Source of the DNA: Beroe forskalii
Taxonomy: Eukaryota > Ctenophora > Nuda > Beroida > Beroidae
Direction: 5' to 3'
NCBI GenBank assembly: GCA_011033025.1
Contig: WFMF01000001.1
Coordinates: 549,755 to 613,754 of the forward strand
DNA length: 64,000 nucleotides
The notes beneath the pieces are model-generated. The model searched no databases, had not been told where the DNA came from, and worked only from the letters and a program-made list of their open reading frames with translations. Positions 6,181 through 59,076 of this stretch are shown here, in pieces; position 1 is the stretch's first letter; each line of letters opens with the position of its first letter. The translations under genes and the position numbers were made by a program.

Positions 6181-6750
6181 TCTCCGTTCCAACACACTTT
6201 TAGAATCCCATTTTATCTGTTTTATTTGTCCTATTTGTCCCACTTTTAGAATCCCATTTCATTTGTCCCAGTCCACATCCACTTATATGACTCCCATTAT
6301 TCTGTCCCATTTAATTCAATTATCCCATTTGTCCCTGTACCCATTCACTTTTTCTAGAGTTTAGGACAATTGGGACAGTGACACCCCCTCTACCCTCCTT
6401 GCCAACAAAGTTTCTCCCCAGATTTTCGTAGCCAAAAAAACTTGACCCATGGCCAGTCAGTTAGATAAGATAAAACAAAATATTTTGCCATATTAGCAAC
6501 AAAATTAGATGAGAGCAGTAATCAGCACATTTAATCATTCAATTATCTATCTATCTAAGACACTCAGATTTTCCATGATTTACAATATAATTAAGGAGCA
6601 ATCACAAACGGAGACAGAGGTTTACGATTATAAGCTAAATAACAAATTTAGTAATACAGATACCTAAGAATAATACAGATACCTAAGAAGTCCATTTCAA
6701 AAAAGAATTGCCCCCAGGTCCCAGAAAAGCATACTGGTTAACAATTGGAA
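6180..6750. other. No gene seen; short TCCCATTTGTCCC repeats
   Basis: Between 6170 and 6340 the motif TCCCATTTGTCCC and variants recur several times in a pyrimidine-rich strand. The remaining sequence to 6750 is AT-rich and without recognisable coding or RNA features. Confidence 0.5.
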
Positions 6751-9012: not shown

Positions 9013-9785
9013 GAGAAGTGCAAATTCTATCAGAGAATGCGCAGCATATCTAACGTGTGCAGCACGCATCTTGTCAGAAACGTGCCCAGCACGCATCTAG
9101 TCAGAAAAGTGCGCCGCACGCATCTAGCCAGGAACGTGCGCAGGATGCATCTAGCCAGAAACGTGCGCAGCACGCATCCAACCAGAAACGTGCCCAGCAC
9201 GCATCTAGCCAGAAACGTGCCCAGCACGCATCTAGCCAGAAACGTGGCCAGCACGCATCTAGCCAGAAACGTGCTTAGCACGCATCTAGCCAGAGCGTGC
9301 CCAGCACGCATCTAGCCAGAAACGTGCCAGCACGCATCAAGCCAGAAACGTGCCCAGCACGCATCAAGCCAGAAACGTGCCCAGCACGCATCAAGCCAGA
9401 AACGTGCGCAGCACGCATCAAGCCAGAAACGTGCGCAGCACGCATCTAGCCAGAAACGTGCGCAGCACGCATCTAGCCAGAAACGTGCCCAGCACGCATC
9501 TAGCCAGAAACGTGGCCAGCACGCATCTAGCCAGAAACGTGCGCAGCACGCTTGTCAGCACTTCTTGTAAGAGAAGTACAAATACTATCAGAGAATGCGC
9601 AGCATATCTACTTCTAGTCAGAAACATGCGCAGCACGCATCTAGTTAGAAACGTGCGTAGCACGCATCTAGCCAGAAACGTGCGCAGCACGCATCTAGTC
9701 AGAAACGTGCCCAGCACGCATCTTGCTAGAAACGTGCCCAGCACGCATCTGGCAAGAAACGTGCGCAGCCCGCATCTAAGAGACG
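9013..9785. repeat. 27-bp minisatellite in two blocks
   Basis: The unit is close to GCAGCACGCATCTAGCCAGAAACGTGC without indels. Roughly 18 copies lie at about 9053-9557 and 6 at about 9617-9780. Each block is preceded by the same roughly 40-bp leader (ending GAGAATGCGCAGCATATCTA) at 9013-9052 and 9570-9611, so leader plus array was duplicated as a higher-order unit. Because 27 is divisible by three, long repetitive frames stay open on both strands. I treat them as artefacts. Confidence 0.92.
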
Positions 9786-46879: not shown

Positions 46880-49800
46880 TCAAACCGCCTTCCCGTTACC
46901 TCTGAGCTTCCGCTGTATTAACTTTGGCGCAAGCGTCAGGAGAATGTCCTCGAAGACTCTGGGAGCGGTATTGTTCGCCAGCACGTGCAGGATAAGGCGC
47001 CCGGAGGAGCCCACATTGAAGTACATGTGCTTGATGGCGGAGTCGTCCCGGAGGAATGCGGTGGAGAGGAGGCGGCGGTAACTCCCGTACGTGAAGAGGA
47101 GTTTGATGAGGGACGCGAATATGGACACGATGTTGCAGATCATCACGAAGACGAGGCAGAACCATAGGATGAGGAAGAGGTATTGGTTGATGACGTTGGG
47201 GGCTAGGACACACATGCCCTGTTCCTCCTCAATACCTGCAAAAGATGGGGTGTAATTTCTGTGGGGGAAGCAAGGGGTGTGAAGCAAGGGGTGTGAAGCA
47301 AAGGGTGTCAAACAAGGGTTGTCAAGCAAGAGGTGTCAAGCAAAGGGTGTTAAGCAAGGGGTGTCAAGCAAGGGGTGTCAAGCAAGGGGTGTCAAGCAAG
47401 GGGTGTCAAGCAAGGGTTCAAGCAAGGGGTGTCAAAGAAGGTAGATTGTCAAAAAGGGGTGTCAAAGGGGTGTCAAGCAAAGGGGTGTCAAGCAAGGGGT
47501 GTCAAGCAAGGGGTGTCAAGCAAGGGGTGTCAAGCAAGGGGTGTCAAGCAAGGGGTGTCAAGCAAGGGGTGTCAAGCAAGGGGTGTCAAGCAAGGGGTGT
47601 CAAGCAAGGGGTTTCAAGCAAGTGGTGTCAAGCAAGTGGTGTCAAGCAAGTGGTGTCAAGCAATGGGTGTCAAGCAAGGGTTGCAAGCAAGTGGTGTCAA
47701 GCAAGAGGTGTCAAGCAAAGTGTCAAGCAAGAGGTGTCAAGCTAGTGGTGTCAAGCAAGGGGTGTCAAGCAAGAGCCTCAGTGATGTCAAAATGTCAAGC
47801 AAGTGGTGTCAAGCAAGGGGTGTCAAGCAAAAGGGGTGTTTCTTATGAGGTCAAGGGGTTTCAAGGTGATTCCTCGTAGATGAAAATGTGATGCCAAAAA
47901 GCTTTCTTTTGATAAAGAGAATGGTAAACTTTAATCATGGGGTTAATTGAGTGGAAATATCCTAGCTACGTATTACATTGCCGGTGGTGTTCTACAAATT
48001 CGGAACAAAGAAGTAGGGTGAAACTGGAAATGGGGAACACAAGAGCTAGTATAATATGGCGGAACACAGAAGAGCAGTTAGTTACCTGAGGCGCCCCATC
48101 GCTTGACTTCGCAAGCCACCATCTTCGGAAAGAGCTTGTCCTTCTCCTCAGTAGCTAACGTATCCTCATACCTCAACTTCTTAATCCACTGGGACCCATA
48201 CGTCTTGAAATCCCCAATGGAGAACATCTCGGCTGTCAGGATGAAGCAGCCGAAGGAGACCGCTGCGTAGAGGATCTTCACGAAGACCATGGAGAGGCCG
48301 AGGCCGTGTTTGCGAGTCAGACTGGCCACCAGGCTCTGTTCGCTCATGTAAAGGTCGAACTTGTAGAAGAGCCAGGTGGCTGCTTTGTCTGTCATTTTCT
48401 TCAGCTCCTGGTCAGACTCAACCGGGTTGTGGAGCAACCTGAAGGGAGGAGGAGATTTAGCAATCTGAGGAGGAGGAGATTTAGGATTGCTATTGTACCT
48501 GGCATTCCCTTACATTCTCACAGCTCTTTTGTACTATTTATAGCCTTTCTGGCCTCGCTCATTTTCAGGTTTCACTCGCTTTCCTCTCGCACAGCAAGCT
48601 CAATGCACTCTAACAAGTAACATTCTTATTTCTTCTCTCTTACGTATTCTCATTAACAAATCTTCTAAATGCATATTACAGCAGCTGGCGCCGGCAAGAT
48701 TCTATTTTGAATAGCATAGGCGAGGCTCATAGCTTGCGGAAGATGTAGGTATATTAGGAACAAAGCATGTGACCTACCAAAGAGAGAATAACCCACCTAA
48801 CTAGGGGTTTGATTTCGCCCACCTAGCGAACTACCCACAAACTATAGGTGTAATATAGCCCACATGGAGAATATTACCCACCAAACTAGAGCCCACTAGA
48901 AAATAACCCACCTTACTAGAGGTTTGATATCGCCCATTCCGAAGTTCTTGTACAGGAGGTAGGGCATGAAGAAGGCGGCTGCTGCCAGCCAGAAGTAGAA
49001 GGGGACCCACTGGTACCACAGGTGGGATATCCGGGTGGGTTCCAGCAACTGGTCGGGGTCTGGACACTTCAGCCGCGTGCCATCTGGGAGGGGGCTGTTA
49101 ATCTGGGTGGGAGGTGGTGGGGAGTAGAGGTGTGGTTAGATTTATATCTTCAAGTGGTATCCTTTGCTTTCTAGAGACAGGGGGCTTCAAGGGTTTTTTG
49201 ATGAATAAAGTGGGGATTAACAAATTTACACAGGTTCAACATGACACTATTCAAACATGACACCAGTAAAACCTAACAAGGTTTAAACCTGACACCAGTT
49301 CAACTAGACACTGTTTCAGCTTGACATCAGTTCGACCTGACACCAATTTAACATGACACTGATTTGCTCTTCACCTAGATCAACCTGTCACTGGTTCAAC
49401 CTGACACTATTTCAATGTCACACCAGTTCAACCCGAAACCAGTCCAGCCTGACACCAGTTCGCCCTGACACCAGTTCACCCTGACACCAGTTCAACCCTG
49501 ACACCAGTTCACCCTGACACCAGTTCAACCTGACACCATTTCACCCTGTAAACAGTTTAACTTGACAGTGTTCAACCTGGTACCAGTTCAACCTGACACC
49601 AGTTCAACCTGAAACCAGTTCAACCTGACACCAGTTCAACCTGACACCAGTTCAACCTGACACCAGTTCAGCCAAACACCAGTTCAACTTGGCGCCATAA
49701 CAACCTAACACCAAATCAACCTGACACTTGGTCAACCAGACACAAGTTTAACCTGAGAATAGTTCAACCTGACACTTGTTTTGTTCAAACTGACACCAGT

Positions 49801-52800
49801 TCATTCTGACACCAGTTCATTTTGACACCAGTTCATTCTGACACCAGTTCAACCTGACACTAGTCCAACCTGACACTATTTCAACTTCAGGTCGGTTCAT
49901 TCTGACACCAGTTCAACCTGAAACCAGTTCAACCTGACACTAGTCCAACCTGACACTATTTCAACTTCAGGTCGGTTCAACCTGATGCCGGTTGACTGAA
50001 CCGTTCAGTTTGACAACAGTTCACTATGACACCGGGTCAGTATTACACTGATCTAGTTTCATCGTGGTTGAGTTGACTTAGGATCACTTTGACTCTTTGA
50101 TACCGGCCCAGTTTGACCATGGTTTGGACCGGGGTTCAGTTTGATACCAATCTTGTCAAGAACCACTATGGCCTGACACTGTTTCTGTCAGTCTGTCTGA
50201 TGCCAGTACAACCTGATGCCGGTTTAGTATGTTGCCACAACAAGAACAGCTTGCGTTGAGTGAAAGTAAGGTGAAAGTAGAGTATGTAAATCCCTGCATT
50301 TCAACATAAGCTTTGGTGATAAAGTTTTTGATCATAATATTGAAATGGTAGCTGCTTTTGCAATAAGATTGATACAGTACACAATACACAGTACATGAAG
50401 TGAATCACAGTGTTCTGAATCGGCATACAAACCCACAAACGCAGAGAACATGAAGCGAGAATGAGGCAGCTTTGAAATTATATTCTACTAGCGTTTGCCC
50501 GCGAAGATTCGCGGAAACAATCAACCTGCGGTTCGTTTTGTATCCAGCAGCCAACAGCAACTTGCTTCATGACGTCATCTTGGAATGTGTAAAGTGATTT
50601 GATCACCTAGGTATCACTTCAACATGCTACACCGCTTACCGAGGATTACAGATATTCGCGGAAATGCACCGTACAACATACTTTGTAATTTGAGATCACC
50701 TATATATACACACAGCATATATTAGCATTAGTAAACGCATGATATTTATTATGCTAATAACTAATTAACGGAAAGTTCAATTCAAATTTATCATAGATAT
50801 GAATAATCCTCTTAATTACAAGAAGATTTTCCCGAAAAAACGATCAAAAATATTGAATGCACTTCTTATAAACGCATCACACACACACACACACATACAT
50901 ACATACACAGACGCACGAACACTTTGAAATTATTAATATAGATTGGCAGAACAGGAACACTAGGCGGATTAAATACTGATGACGTCATCACCCAGCCTAG
51001 CTGAACTGATGACGTCACCTCGCCTACTGTCCATGTTCCCCACTGCAGTTCAGCTGTATATATATCATCTTCTCGGTTGAAACTTGAAAGCAAAGGATGC
51101 GCTAGAAGATATAATCTAAACCATACCTCGGACTCCAGTCGACCTGTTACTGACTTGAGAGAACGTATCGCTGCACGCCAGACGGAAACCCTCGGCGGGC
51201 GCGATGCCGGGGTACGGCGCGAATAGTCTCGGCAGATCGTACGCGATCTCCAGGGTGTGGAGCCCGTACGCGATGCAGTAGTCCTGCGAAGGCGAAGGAG
51301 TGAAATATGGGGGTAATAATATATCCGGGCATTGGGCCACAGACTGATGCGGCTCTCTGGAGACACATGGGGCTCTGGAGATATTGTCACTTTTAGCTTA
51401 CCTACAGGATCTCAGAAACCTGGAATCTTCTTGGCATTGACCAATCAGCCCGTGAGTTTACGATCAACTCGTGCGCTGATTGGTCAATGAAAAAACCTGT
51501 GGGTAAGCTAAAAGACACGCCCATGTGACCCAGACAGGCATCAGACTGAGGACCAATGCCCGGGGAACACAACTCACCCTTAAGTTTAACTGGCGTACAA
51601 GGCGGCGCCTCGTCGGGCAACAAGCCCGGGTATGGGATATTGTAAGCAGGTTGGTCGTAGCCCTCAAACACTGTATATAGCCCCTGGGTCCAGCAGTAGT
51701 CCTGGGCAGAATGTGGGGGGTGAAGTGGGTGCTTGGAGTGGGTGGGGAGTTGATTTGAAACTCCTGGGCAAAGTGTGGGGGTGAAGTGAGGTGTTTGGAC
51801 TTGGTGGGGAGTTGATTTGAAACTCCTGGGCAAAGGGACGGGTGTGAAGCTAAAGGTGAAAGAAATAAAGTTGATTTGAAAGAAGAGGTTAGCATGCTCA
51901 GGATGTCAGATTGGTACACTCTATATGAGTTGCAGTTTGGGGTTTTGGCAAATGAATTTGTGCATGTGTGGGTCTGACTGTGACAGTAAATTTGTGAATG
52001 AATTCATTTTGACTCCTTCATTTGTTTCAAATCAATCCCCATAATCGTCTGTCTTCATCAATCAAAAACTCCAGTTGCAAGTCATTAGATCATGCCTCTC
52101 CGTATCCACGATGGCGATCAAAAATGGCAATAATTCTGGAAACCGCTCCTAAATTAGACTTCGAAACAACAACAAGTCAAAGATCCATACCTCTGCGAAA
52201 GTTGATCCAAACTTTTTGAAGCCATCGCAACTGATAACACTACCGGTGTACTGCCGGACTGTTACCGTGGTGCCCATGACAACCAGCAAGACGAACATAA
52301 AGCTTCTGTTCAGCTGGTCCCAGCCGTCATCGATAGTTATTCCCTGCAAATATAGTCGGGTTAGATTCTAAACACAAGGAAATATTTTATTTTCTCCCAT
52401 AAATTAACGATGAAGGAGCCTTGAGTTTAGCTACATTCTTCTCACAATCACGATGATGATCATTTCAGGTCCCAGGAGCATTGGTAAAAGCAGGATATAA
52501 ACCCTTGAAACTGATTTCGTATCCGAACGCGCCGCGCATTTGAAATTGTTCACAGAATTAACAAAATCGCATTAAAATTTCAGAAAAAAGTAACTTTACA
52601 TACCCATCGGCACTGGCTGGCATAGAGGGCATTATGGCGTTTGACAACTGTACGTTTGGAAGGCATGATTCAATATAATTCGCAGAGGAAACGAGTTCGG
52701 AGCTGCTGGACCCAGGGGCTACAACAAGAGGAGAGAGAGCGAAGCGACTACTTCAACATGAGCATACACGCATAAGGAGTAAAAGAAGAGAGTACACTCT

Positions 52801-55800
52801 CGCAGTGAGAGAGCTAAGCCAGGGAGGAGATTAGCCAGTGCGTAATCGGCCCTTGTCATTGGTCACAATTACACTTGCTTGTTTGCCTCTACCCGGCTAT
52901 ATAATAGGTCGCTCTAAACCAAATACACGCGTATCTCCGCCTGCTTATAACGGATTATATACTGTTGTCAGGGTTACCATCGATTATAGGAGGAAGCCGC
53001 GAGCGGTCTTCATTATAGTATAGATCATCAACCCTTCCACAAAACATGGGTATTGTAGTGGCGAGGGAGGGGAGAGAGAGAGAGAGAGAGCTAGACGATC
53101 CCTCCCCTTGGATCGCTATTATATATTATTGCACTCAGGGAGGGACATCATGTGACATGGGGGTTATCATCTGGGACACAAAGAATCCAGGCCTTTAACT
53201 AGGTACTCCTCCAGCCACCTGGTTACTAATTGTATGCGCATTTGGTACTCCAGGGGAGAGAGCTGAGGTACTCGGGACAATGAGTGCTTCTCTAGGTAAG
53301 TGGGTAGGTTCTTCTCTAATAGGGTAATTGGGCCATTTCTTAAGAAGCTTTTTCCGGTTAAGATGGTTTCAGGCGTGGACATGAGTAATCGAGATGATGA
53401 GTAGCACTTCTCAAATACGGCAATTTGTTAAGTGGGGGTCACCCCTCATTTTTTGGAATTGGAGATATGAGTTGGCCAAGGCGTCTACAAACATTTTGAC
53501 AGTGGTCTTGAGTCCACAGGTCCAACATTGCCCATGTTAGGCTTCAGAGCAAAAATGGATTTTGCTTGCATTCGATTCGTATCGACGAGCCTATCATTTC
53601 AGTGTATTTGCTTGTCAAAATTGGATGACAAATGATGAAGTTATGGCCATGCGAAGCGCGCGCCAAAGTGGCAGTTGACCTATTTTGGGCTTAAAGATGG
53701 CCATTATGGCCACATTTTTGGAGATATGAGCTTCATATGAGGTCAAAATTGATGGGCAAACCAATTTATAAGTGAATTTTACCTTATTTGTCCATAAAAA
53801 CCGTCAAAGATCCACTAAATCATTTATTTTGCCCGAATGGACTTTTTACTTTTCGTTATAATTTTTACATTTTTCAATGTTTCTTCATGAAATTTTCAGA
53901 ATCGTTTCGAAACTAAATTCTCACTTAAGTTACTTAGCGAAATTTTGAGTTAGGCCCCCAAAATATTTTTTGGTCACCGGAGTAAAAATCCCCGGGGTTT
54001 ATTTTTGCTCCGCCATTCTTGCTTCGAGGCCTCACATGGGCAATTTTAGACCTATGAACTCAAGACCACCGTCAAAATGTTGGTACACGCCCTGGCCATC
54101 CTGGCAAACTTATATCTCAAATTCTAGTTTTCCAAAATATGAGGGGTGAACCCCCCCCTTTAAAAAGCTTTTCAGGTTGAGATGGTTCCAGGCTAGGGCA
54201 TGAATACTTGGGACACTGACAGTGAGTCATCCTCTATCGGGGTCATTTCTTAACTTGTAGCTAAGGTATGAGTACTAGAGCTGAAAAGCAGTAAGGTAAT
54301 TTATTGAGAAGCTGTTTCCGGTTGAGATGGTTTCAGGCGAGGGCAAGAATACTTGGGACAATGACTATGAGTAATTCTCTTATAGGGCCAATTCTTAAGA
54401 AGCCTTTTCCGGTTGAGATGGTTTCAAGCGAGGATATGAGAACTTTGGACAATGAATTCTTCTTCAATAGGGCTCTTTCTTAAGAAGCCTTTTCCGGTTA
54501 AGATGGTTCCAGGCGAGCAGACGGAATCTCGAGCAGTCTTTTGTAAAGTCTGTTTGGCGAATTGAAATTTGAAATGCCTATGTGCGCGCGCAGAATTATT
54601 TTGTTTTGTTAAACTTTCGTGCGGGCGCGCGGCGCCTTCTCGTACTCCAGTGCTTTCCTGAAGTATCTCCACTTGTCAACCAGCACTTCTTCAAACAAGA
54701 AAAAACTCTCCCTAAGAAACTATGGTTTGAAAACTCACCAAAACTGGTTCAACAAGCTGCCTAAGTTGTAAGTAAGGAAGCATAAAACAATGCTAATGAA
54801 ATGCCTCCAGCAGCAGCTATACTCCGAGAAAACTACAACAAGAAAATTCAATATATTTCACAGAAAACAAGTCCAAAGATGAAGACTAACCAAGATCTTG
54901 GGATTTAAAAGCCGCTGGATGTGACTGAAGAAAATCATCTTGATTTCCCTGGACAAGTGATAATCTTGACGACGATGATCAGCACCCAATAATTCTCAGC
55001 TCGATATGATATTTGCAGTCGTCCGATATATAATTAATTTCCCGCTCGATTTATAATCACGGTAGACGAAGATTTAAGCAAACTATTTGAAGGAAACACG
55101 TAGCACTAGTGTATTAAAATAATTAAAACATACGATCATACACGTATATATATATATATATAGTCAAGTAGTAGGAGTAGAAGGTTGTCAACGATCATCC
55201 TCTCAAATCTACGTGCATATACTCCAACACAACCTCACTCTCTTGACTTATATTTATATATATATATATGATTGGGATTCCAGACCAGAGGTCACGTGAG
55301 TCACGTGATACCAGGGAGATATATACGTGTATGTTTGATCTGATATCTGGAGTATTTATATTAGAAGAGATCGTTTTAAATACCTACAGGAGCGATATAT
55401 AGAGATATATACATACATCGTATAGATAGAGCTGGTTTTGTTAATTATACCGATATATATTAATGATATTAATTAATTGGTCTTTAACCATCGCCGCCAT
55501 GGGAATCTCTACATCTTTCGAGAGAGCAGGAATCGGAAGATTTTTTGGGGGAAATTCGGATTTCTCCACTTTCCAGCTCCATCAGGATACAGGATTTGTG
55601 CCGCGAACAAAGCACGTACGCCGGAGAATGAGGGGATGGCGATGGTTTGTAATGGCGAACTGATGACGTCACTCCTCCTACAATATGTGCGCGGAGCTGT
55701 GCGGAGAGTGCGGAGCTACTCCATTTGGAAGTGTCGACAAGCTAAAAGACTCTCCTTTACAACAATCATGAAGCCTATCAGCTGCGGAGGAAACCTATTG

Positions 55801-58800: not shown

Positions 58801-59076
58801 TGAATACCTGATTCAGAAATCCTAGCCTTGAATTATAAAATTCATCAGCACATTAATCTTGATTTGATATAATACCTTTATTACAGGATAATGGTCCAAA
58901 TTGAAGTTTATTTGACAGGCAACGTTTATTCAACATGCAAATCATAAATTGACTATAATCAAGTTGATTAATAATTAATTAATTAGTTAATTATTAATTA
59001 ATTGTTATTCATCAAACAACAAGCGACTTACTTTGAATGGAGTAACTCCTTTGAATTTTGAGAGTATGTCTAACAT
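46880..59076 (-). CDS. Innexin gap-junction/hemichannel subunit
   Basis: The exons in transcript order are 59032-59095 (ATG at 59076), 52191-52343, 51578-51701 or 51127-51283, 48912-49083, 48086-48438 and 46880-47235 (TGA). All junctions are GT-AG and in phase, giving 400 residues with the first alternative exon or 411 with the second. The protein starts MLDILSKFKGVTPFK, then helix 1 (FMFVLLVVMGTTVTV RQY) and loop 1 with Cys in VISCDGF and DYC. Helix 2 carries the innexin signature W-Y-Q-W-V-P-F, followed by GDIKPLVRLLHNP, helix 3 (VKILYAAVSFGCFILTAEMF), loop 2 with Cys in VACEVKRWG and GMCVLAPN, helix 4 (YLFLILWFCLVFVMICNIV) and a cytoplasmic C-terminus. Length and the two-plus-two cysteine layout fit the family. 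Innexins form intercellular channels or hemichannels in the plasma membrane. The start was chosen because ML-x-x-L..KG at this distance from helix 1 is the family norm. Confidence 0.93.
47250..47870. repeat. 15-16-bp minisatellite abutting the innexin last-exon acceptor
   Basis: About 38 copies of GTGTCAAGCAAGGG(G) begin 15-20 bp from the acceptor of the last innexin exon (47236). On the minus strand the unit is pyrimidine-rich (CCCTTGCTTGACAC), so the array extends the pyrimidine tract of the intron. Long open frames across it are artefacts. Confidence 0.93.
48439..48482 (-). repeat. Duplicated acceptor of innexin exon 48086-48438
   Basis: On the minus strand AAATCTCCTCCTCC(T/C)TCAG followed by (A/G)TTGCT occurs twice, about 25 bp apart. 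The second is the true acceptor. The duplication spans the intron end and the first bases of the exon. Confidence 0.8.
48785..48935 (-). repeat. Duplicated donor of innexin exon 48912-49083
   Basis: The exon end GGGCGATATCAAACCTCTAG with TAAG|GTGGGTTATT is copied at 48786-48825 (GGGCGAAATCAAACCCCTAG, TTAG|GTGGGTTATT). Poorer partial copies lie at about 48830-48900 (GGTGGGTAATATTCTC and similar). The splice donor lies inside the repeat. Confidence 0.8.
49240..50000. repeat. 16-bp minisatellite (TGACACCAGTTCAACC)
   Basis: About 40 imperfect copies lie in the innexin intron between exons 49083 and 51127, tapering to degenerate copies by 50200. A 70-bp higher-order duplication (TAGTCCAACCTGACACTATT..CTTCAGGTCGG) is present at 49862 and 49942. 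Confidence 0.92.
50200..51110. other. Innexin intron; no other gene seen
   Basis: Contents are a CA/CATA microsatellite at 50877-50905, a pair of TGACGTCA motifs at 50980-51015 and a GC-rich hairpin-like phrase (GCGAAGATTCGCGG) at 50500. No exon was recognised. Confidence 0.5.
51127..51283 (-). CDS. Innexin alternative loop-1 exon B
   Basis: This 157-nt exon has a TTCGCAG acceptor and a CGAG|GTATGG donor, enters in phase 0 and leaves in phase 1, exactly as exon A does. It encodes DYCIAYGLHTLEIAYDLPRL, then FAPYPGIAPAEGFRLACSDT and FSQVSNRSTGVR. It shares with exon A the opening DYC, G-L-x-T, YD-x-P, PYPG and a later Cys, but lacks the otherwise conserved Trp after DYC (Ile here) and is 11 codons longer. 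NRS is a possible glycosylation site, as it would face outside the cell. Using A and B together would shift the frame. Confidence 0.8.
51390..51514. repeat. Long inverted repeat in the intron between the two alternative innexin exons
   Basis: CTTTTAGCTTACCTACAGG and CATTGACCAATCAGC on the left pair with GCTGATTGGTCAATG and CCTGTGGGTAAGCTAAAAG on the right, with an inner stem of GTGAGTT/AACTCGTG around a short loop. It fills the middle of a 294-bp intron. A related shorter palindrome (CCAATCAGCG..CGCTGATTGGTCAAT) is at 60948-60998, which suggests a MITE family. Confidence 0.85.
51578..51701 (-). CDS. Innexin alternative loop-1 exon A
   Basis: This 124-nt exon has a CTGCCCAG acceptor and an AAGG|GTGAGT donor and runs phase 0 in, phase 1 out. 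It encodes DYCWTQGLYTVFEGYDQPAY followed by NIPYPGLLPDEAPPCTPVKL and K. The DYCW-x-Q-G sequence is the canonical innexin loop-1 motif, so this is presumably the ancestral form. It joins the downstream exon as K-D-G-T-R-L-K-C. Confidence 0.9.
51701..51842 (-). repeat. 62-bp repeat carrying copies of the exon A acceptor
   Basis: On the plus strand CCTGGGCA(A/G)A followed by GTGGGG..GTGAAGTG..GGTGGGGAGTTGATTTGAAACT starts at 51701, 51763 and 51825. On the transcript strand each start is TTTGCCCAG|GAGT or TTCTGCCCAG|GACT, so the acceptor and the first four exon bases are repeated two and a half times. Confidence 0.85.
52604..52666 (-). CDS. Possible alternative first exon of the innexin
   Basis: An ATG at 52666 opens 21 codons (MPSKRTVVKRHNALYASQCR, W) ending at a GG|GTATGT donor in phase 0, which would splice cleanly to the 52343 exon. 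The sequence does not resemble innexin N-termini, whereas the 59032-59095 exon does. It could be a second promoter's start exon or a chance frame. Confidence 0.25.
53050..53400. other. Innexin intron 1: GA microsatellite and repeat module
   Basis: (GA)n lies at 53072-53090. From 53190 to 53395 there is a 71-codon minus-strand frame ending in a module (TTAAGAAGC-x-TTTTCCGGTTAAG ATGGTTTCAGGCG) that is repeated at 54160-54520. I cannot assign the frame to a family. Confidence 0.4.
53434..54159. mobile_element. DNA element with about 110-bp terminal inverted repeats
   Basis: GGGGTCACCCCTCATTTTTT, GAGATATGAGTTGGCCA and ACATTTTGACAGTGGTCTTG at the left end are matched in reverse at the right end (CAAGACCACCGTCAAAATGT, GGCAAACTTATATCTCAAAT, ATGAGGGGTGAACCCCCCC). 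The arms are about 80-85% alike. The 725-bp element is non-coding and interrupts the repeat module of 53340-54520. Confidence 0.75.
54160..54530. repeat. About 80-bp tandem repeats
   Basis: Four imperfect units contain CTTAAGAAGC(C)TTTTCCGGTT, GAGATGGTTTCAGGCGAGG and ACTTGGGACAATGA. A fifth copy lies at 53330-53395 on the other side of the 53434-54159 element. The copies were therefore probably adjacent before that insertion. Confidence 0.75.
54535..58560. other. Innexin intron 1; no gene confirmed
   Basis: This contains a GC-rich patch at 54580-54640, (TA)n tracts at 55140-55160 and 55253-55270, a TGACGTCA copy with flank AATGGCGAACTGATGACGTC at 55650, and several ATG-initiated frames of 60-138 codons (55477, 55850, 56268, 57959) without recognisable domains or exon borders. 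I regard them as chance frames. Confidence 0.45.
58566..58738. mobile_element. GCAGTTCGAACTGC-type palindromic element (longest copy)
   Basis: CGAACTGCAGTGCGCGCGTC TTTTGT at the left pairs with ACAAAAGACGCGC..GCAGTTCGAACTGC at the right. An inner pair is GCGCCGTCTAAGTTCG and CGCGCGAACTTAAGCCGCGC. About 170 bp, GC-rich against AT-rich flanks, in innexin intron 1 about 300 bp from the first canonical exon. Confidence 0.75.

Follow-up and report, generated by a model that had tools for sequence, protein, structure and literature searches.

Two tandem exons for extracellular loop 1 in a Beroe forskalii innexin gene: a candidate case of mutually exclusive splicing

The innexin locus and its paired loop-1 exons

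On the minus strand of a 64,000-nucleotide (nt) stretch of the Beroe forskalii assembly GCA_011033025.1 (contig WFMF01000001.1, positions 549,755 to 613,754; hereafter the window) lies an innexin gene that spans 12 kb and contains two adjacent homologous exons, A and B, for the same part of the protein, namely the latter half of extracellular loop 1 with its second cysteine. The exon boundaries proposed in the initial annotation were borne out base by base, and with them the CAG that precedes both exons, their common beginning GACTACTGC, their identical phases and the in-frame joining of either exon to E2 (at 52191) and E4 (at 49083) (Table 1). The differences described there are equally real: B is 33 nt, i.e. 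11 codons, longer than A (157 vs 124 nt), has Ile in place of the Trp of A and carries an N-R-S motif. The first 29 codons of the two exons pair without gaps, the remainder does not. The annotation had further argued that the reading frame enforces a choice, and this also holds: inclusion of A and B together, or of neither, produces a frameshift and stops, whereas exactly one exon is allowed. The pair shares with mutually exclusive tandem exons the adjacency, the homology, the common phases and the unproductive messages when both or neither are taken.

By its sequence, the gene is a ctenophore innexin. Both forms pass the curated cut-off of the Pfam innexin family PF00876 (25 bits) with 183.3 bits for isoform A and 170.4 bits for isoform B, and both loop-1 cysteines are present (CDGF in E2, DYC in A or B). 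The innexin fold was recovered in a structural comparison, which covered the A form of a relative, P0001. This protein, 400 residues long and 97% identical over 95% of the query, is the best of 40 matches from a protein search that scored only the 7998 candidates with the most words in common; an organism is named for four of the 40, in each case a ctenophore (Mnemiopsis leidyi or Bolinopsis microptera). P0001 carries exon A, and a junction search against it recovers the chain E1-E2-A-E4-E5-E6. Whereas the present gene spans 12 kb, P0001 is encoded without interruption on contigs no longer than 3079 bases; we therefore infer that its source looks like complementary DNA (cDNA).

P0001 also indicates where the coding sequence begins. 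Its N-terminus, MLDILSKFKGVTPFK, is encoded exactly by E1, which is therefore the first coding exon in place of a start near 52.67 kb. The stretch beginning MPSKRT (52604-52666) is consequently ruled out as the main first exon and is at best an alternative one. As an observation in its own right, this possible alternative first exon, MPSKRTVVKRHNALYASQCRW, lies in intron 1 in phase with E2 and has a usable donor that outscores eight of 30 true donors. From the MPSKRT start, the spliced forms would comprise 406 (A) and 417 (B) residues; from the start supported by P0001, isoform B has 411 residues and isoform A, by subtraction, 400, which is the length of P0001.

Table 1. Coordinates of the coding exons, repeats and predicted hairpin of the innexin gene (positions in the window) and of the exon pair in a second innexin gene on C509
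Feature	Location	Strand	Description
E1	59032..59076	minus	First coding exon MLDILSKFKGVTPFK; phase 0 out, good donor; equals the N-terminus of P0001
E2	52191..52343	minus	Transmembrane segment (TM) 1 plus the initial half of extracellular loop 1, which holds the first Cys of the loop; phase 0 out
Tandem 62-nt repeats before A	51700..51849	minus	Two complete units, with a 26-nt stretch matching a third; the units duplicate the acceptor region of A
Exon A	51578..51701	minus	Canonical second half of loop 1, DYCWTQG..PYPG..PPC; 124 nt, phase 0 in, phase 1 out; used in P0001
A-B intron	51284..51577	minus	294 nt; predicted single long hairpin, -134.2 kcal/mol, z -11, not reached in any of 200 dinucleotide shuffles
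Outer hairpin arms	51325..51563	minus	51538-51563 and 51325-51350; 26 nt, 88% complementary
Inner palindromic repeat	51390..51519	minus	Resembles a miniature inverted-repeat transposable element (MITE); nested in the hairpin, about 130 nt, ends like CGGCGTATTAGCTTACCCACAGG; many genome copies
Exon B	51127..51283	minus	Alternative second half of loop 1, DYCIAYG..PYPGIAP..LAC..NRS; 157 nt, phase 0 in, phase 1 out
N-R-S motif	51140..51148	minus	Within exon B
E4	48912..49083	minus	End of loop 1 (KCPD cysteine) and TM2; phase 1 in, phase 2 out
E5	48086..48438	minus	Cytoplasmic loop, TM3, loop 2
E6	46880..47235	minus	TM4 and C-terminus, stop TGA
C509 exon 3a	C509:26424-26549		126 nt, phase 1 in, phase 1 out
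C509 exon 3b	C509:25842-25967		126 nt, phase 1 in, phase 1 out

Evidence for exon B and a second exon pair in the genome

Several scores favour B as a genuine exon. A profile of 17 ctenophore loop-1 sequences, from which the row of B had been removed, detects B with 42.7 bits (E = 9.3e-12) in a search of the window and 17 loci; the 15 loop-1 exons that this search returned have E values of at most 2.4e-8, followed by a match in the neighbouring exon of one of those genes (E = 0.046), and all others have 0.44 or more. The donor and the acceptor of B each score above half of the true sites taken from five innexin genes (15 of 30), and sites scoring as well make up 1.7% of 744 GT and 1.4% of 659 AG dinucleotides on the strand of the gene, true sites included; the letters of the B donor are identical to those of the E2 donor, which is itself in the training set. 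In frame, B has a codon score of 0.52 bits per codon compared with 0.26 for A; among 770 overlapping stop-free stretches of equal length at other loci (true exons included), 2.2% score as high as B. The profile match, the splice-site scores and the codon scores together rule out B as a product of chance or an intron artefact.

The divergence between the exons points to considerable age. Over the shared 29 codons, 42 of 87 sites differ, with proportions of differing silent and replacement sites (pS and pN) of 0.66 and 0.43, respectively. At the residue level, 14 of 29 positions are identical, compared with a mean of 6.4 in neutral simulations, and this identity was reached in none of 5000 runs; the shared codons stayed stop-free in 23% of the simulations. 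When B is placed by eye on the 32 homologues (of 40 matches) that were aligned, it retains seven of the nine invariant residues of the stretch (C, G, T, P, P, G, P). Since its silent sites are near saturation and the motif has nevertheless been kept, B looks like an old exon under selection and not like decayed sequence. Alleles or assembly copies were ruled out as an explanation for the pair, because both exons lie on a single contig, their divergence is near saturation and a DNA search of the genome (216 Mb, 1134 contigs) with B returns no match but B itself.

As for where B came from, its 30-residue core was compared with 14 loops: P0002 is closest (18/30), followed by P0020 and P0024 (17/30 each), the innexin on C414 (16/29) and A (15/30). 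An origin within the gene fits these values; they are few, however, and do not settle the origin, including a possible one from the C414 innexin. The latter gene (C414:833326) is mostly one open frame, has YCM for YCW in loop 1 and, by eye, resembles P0039 and P0040 in its second half.

A second innexin gene, on C509 and close to the protein P0003, likewise contains two tandem loop-1 exons, 3a and 3b, within C509:25842-26549. They are separated by an intron of 456 nt, are saturated at silent sites (pS 0.85, pN 0.22) and encode 28 identical residues out of 41. Their boundaries are unlike those of A and B in that CDGF is included and the exons end at PYPG; this pair is thus probably the result of an independent duplication, as judged from the exon structures. 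Of the innexin gene loci at which a loop-1 exon was detected (13 loci, 15 exons), two have two such exons; at least one more gene, near C188:300000, was read only in part. In C504 and C347, apparent overlaps were rejected as exon copies because the alignments run on into introns.

Exclusive use of the exons and competing explanations

The best explanation of the exon pair, to which we assign a probability of roughly 0.6, is that A and B are tandem loop-1 exons from an old duplication, probably within the gene, that are used in a mutually exclusive manner. The following sequence of events can be envisaged: A productive mRNA would take either the path E2-A-E4 or the path E2-B-E4, with one exon per message, because both or neither would bring the frameshift and stops described above. 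B would be spliced in some cell type or stage. Folding of the A-B intron may help to prevent joining of A to B, as it would leave too little space between the A donor and the B branch point (effective intron length of about 57 nt). The swap of outer loop 1 may then change the docking partners of the innexon or the behaviour of the channel mouth.

The folding step builds on the predicted hairpin that fills the A-B intron. In the C509 gene, the 3a-3b intron has a predicted folding energy of -218.5 kcal/mol and contains copies of two other repeat families. In both genes, the predicted fold takes up nearly the whole intron. After folding together with the exons, the effective intron lengths set by the outermost confident pairs are 57 nt (A-B) and 73 nt (3a-3b), and 18 and 75 nt when the introns are folded alone; the shortest modelled intron measures 158 nt (n = 36, of which six models were judged unreliable and left out of splice-site scoring). 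Distances below about 50 nt between donor and branch point have been described as a steric limit (PMC7969005). A short folded intron could therefore block A-to-B joining. This mechanism was hypothesized after the data had been seen, and it assumes the branch-point position.

The observations that weigh against the exclusive use of A and B concern the exon itself, the folding of the intron and the other exon copies in the genome. Protein searches with the B stretch yielded 11 candidates among full-length proteins, none at E<=10, and no candidate among short proteins, and the sole near-identical relative, P0001, shows the A form. The A-form and B-form proteins agree in 375 of 411 columns (91%), and the database groups sequences at 90% identity, so the four-member cluster of P0001 might conceal a B form. 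B lacks the invariant Trp, and its second Cys is shifted two residues later in the by-eye placement. The initial annotation had called this Trp conserved, which is true insofar as it follows the cysteine in 30 of 30 motif-matched homologues (of the 40 matches), compared with Ile in B; the position is, however, occupied by Met in the C414 innexin and by Phe in C. elegans INX-6, for which a docked channel structure has been solved, and going by these sequences the loop-1 Trp is therefore not essential to the innexin family. No homologue was found for the C-terminal half of B, and the exons differ in length by the 11 codons mentioned above.

The empty searches, the lost Trp and shifted Cys, and the A form of P0001 are what one would expect if B were the relic of a duplicated loop-1 exon, once useful or merely tolerated and now spliced rarely or never. 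Such a relic would have had to keep its motif, its open frame and both splice sites while its silent sites approached saturation, although only a minority of the neutral simulations stayed stop-free over the shared codons, and we consider this explanation unlikely. It is less probable again that B is a regulatory "poison" exon whose inclusion with A, or an unproductive choice, sends the mRNA into decay and thereby tunes the amount of A protein: the frameshift and stops of the A+B message would serve this purpose, and so would two repeat-derived acceptor-like sites ahead of A, with first exon bases at 51763 and 51825 and scores of 13.7 and 12.4 compared with 13.6 for A, use of which would shift the frame owing to the 62-nt spacing; a poison exon, however, has no need of a loop-1 motif and a codon bias, yet B has both, and E2-B-E4 is fully in frame. 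It would be a real surprise if B were part of another transcript, such as one initiated inside the gene. The possible MPSKRT exon with its usable donor could provide such a start in intron 1, yet the phase of B suits both E2 and E4, its homology to A covers the corresponding stretch, and nothing else coding was noticed around B, where no systematic search was made.

For the folding step, a rival view is that the hairpin introns, being simply nested MITEs of a genome rich in repeats, play no part in exon choice, in which case exclusivity, if any, would result from frame and decay. The hairpins are indeed built in part of repeats that are common in the genome and may be incidental: the inner repeat of the A-B intron gave 77 matches from 40 scored of 472 candidates (itself included), seven copies of which were inspected, and the fold scan revealed hairpins stronger than that of the A-B intron near positions 9213, 15485 and 38809 of the window. 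Moreover, the predicted fold with the exons buries most of the donor of A itself, with a pairing probability of 0.97-1.0 at six of nine positions, so that the use of A would be hindered as well as A-to-B joining. On the other hand, hairpins as extreme as that between A and B are rare (three of 326 scan segments of the window and one of 755 from other innexin loci), yet both loop-1 exon pairs have one; these scans are rough, with eight and five shuffles per segment and one common standard deviation, which inflates the value of the longer intron. The region of the 3' outer arm (51300-51388) is single-copy, matching only itself in the genome search; for the 5' outer arm, which was searched only as part of a long query, no match was listed. 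Taken together, incidental hairpins and hairpins with a role in splicing are about evenly balanced in our judgement.

The remaining points against the exclusive use of loop-1 exons come from other innexin genes. In the C509 gene, double inclusion and double skipping of the 126-nt exons are both in frame; the frame enforces no choice, and exclusivity there would need another cause. An innexin gene on C841 contains a partial second copy of its cytoplasmic-loop exon (14 residues, 11 of 14 identical; region 6251-6493 of its locus), so tandem copying may be a general feature of this genome that is not confined to loop 1, and the idea that exon duplication is restricted to this loop was dropped. This copy also slightly lowered our already guarded estimate of a broader scenario, in which a switchable docking loop evolved more than once in ctenophore innexins by duplication of loop-1 exons, with an RNA hairpin of repeat origin keeping the choice exclusive by reducing the intron to a length that is no longer usable for the spliceosome; this scenario is best regarded as doubtful.

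Further repeats were seen by eye in and around the gene. About 0.7 kb at 53430-54150, between long imperfect inverted repeats, looks like another foldback element, and the introns contain long tandem-repeat-like stretches at 47300-47800 and 49250-50000 (TTGACACCCC.. and GTCAGGTTGAACTG..).

Docking, known splice variants and tandem exons in other systems

Extracellular loops largely determine the docking partners of innexons. In INX-6, both extracellular loops form the junctional interface, where two lobes of loop 1 straddle the hairpins of loop 2 (PMC5146279). Exchange of outer loop 1 by splicing would thus represent a natural loop-swap experiment, in which the same pore and cytoplasmic domains are combined with a different docking surface. 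If this is true, a single gene could give rise to innexons with different docking partners, or to a junctional and a non-junctional form, selected by splicing. In ctenophores, for which a position as likely sister group to all remaining animals has been described (PMC9949713), it would then follow that splicing, in addition to gene duplication, can diversify the specificity of coupling. The presence of such exon pairs in two genes of one genome makes the idea testable with RNA data.

The N-R-S motif of B invites a comparison with pannexins, and the initial annotation had taken it as a hint of a channel that does not dock. The likeness is an N-X-S/T motif in an extracellular loop, which B shares with pannexins and N-glycosylated innexins. 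The motif itself is present as claimed; the pannexin-style argument is weakened, since such motifs are common in ctenophore innexins and are not by themselves a mark of non-docking. N-glycosylation sites have been described for 67% of ctenophore innexins, and seven site-bearing innexins do form gap junctions (PMC8769644). In a crude motif scan of the 32 scannable homologues among the 40 matches, 12 have N-X-S/T in loop 1 and 23 have it around loop 2. The N-R-S motif of B alone is therefore no sign of a non-docking channel.

The nearest precedent for variant innexins from one gene is shaking-B of Drosophila, which uses alternative 5' exons and promoters. Its products ShakB(L) and ShakB(N+16) differ in the N-terminal third and form rectifying junctions when paired across a synapse (PMC5412853). 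Changes between the ShakB forms may fall anywhere in this third, whereas in the present gene the second half of loop 1 alone would be exchanged, by means of internal tandem exons. Aedes Inx1 and Inx3 also have alternatively spliced coding regions, but the splicing alters the C-terminal end and no extracellular loop (PMC8580445). Among ctenophores, the innexins INXA to INXR, sorted into 17 families (Ortiz et al. 2023, PMC9949713), belong to the same protein family, and the three innexin genes clustered on C509 resemble the published INXB-C-D cluster; in that study, isoforms were cut to one representative, and its main text contains no words starting with "splic", "exon" or "intron".

Tandem exclusive exons as such are well described: OGDH 4a/4b, insect Dscam1 and myosin heavy chain all have adjacent homologous exons, and exclusivity is enforced by frame and decay, by a short distance between 5' splice site and branch point (threshold of about 50 nt) or by RNA structure (PMC7969005, PMC8042237, PMC6071210, PMC2257972). 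These genes belong to other families, and exclusive splicing of A and B is predicted from sequence. In OGDH, distant branch points are said to prevent transposon insertion into the inter-exon intron, whereas the A-B intron is filled by a repeat-derived hairpin. The initial annotation knew of no comparable case in innexins; in agreement with this, no internal choice of loop-1 exons was found to be described in the open-licence literature on innexin and gap-junction splicing, in which most matching papers were judged by their listing. Exclusive exons are known, and so, separately, are innexin splice variants with differences in the first third of the protein; an internal tandem pair of loop-1 exons, in two genes of one genome, is new as far as the literature searched shows.
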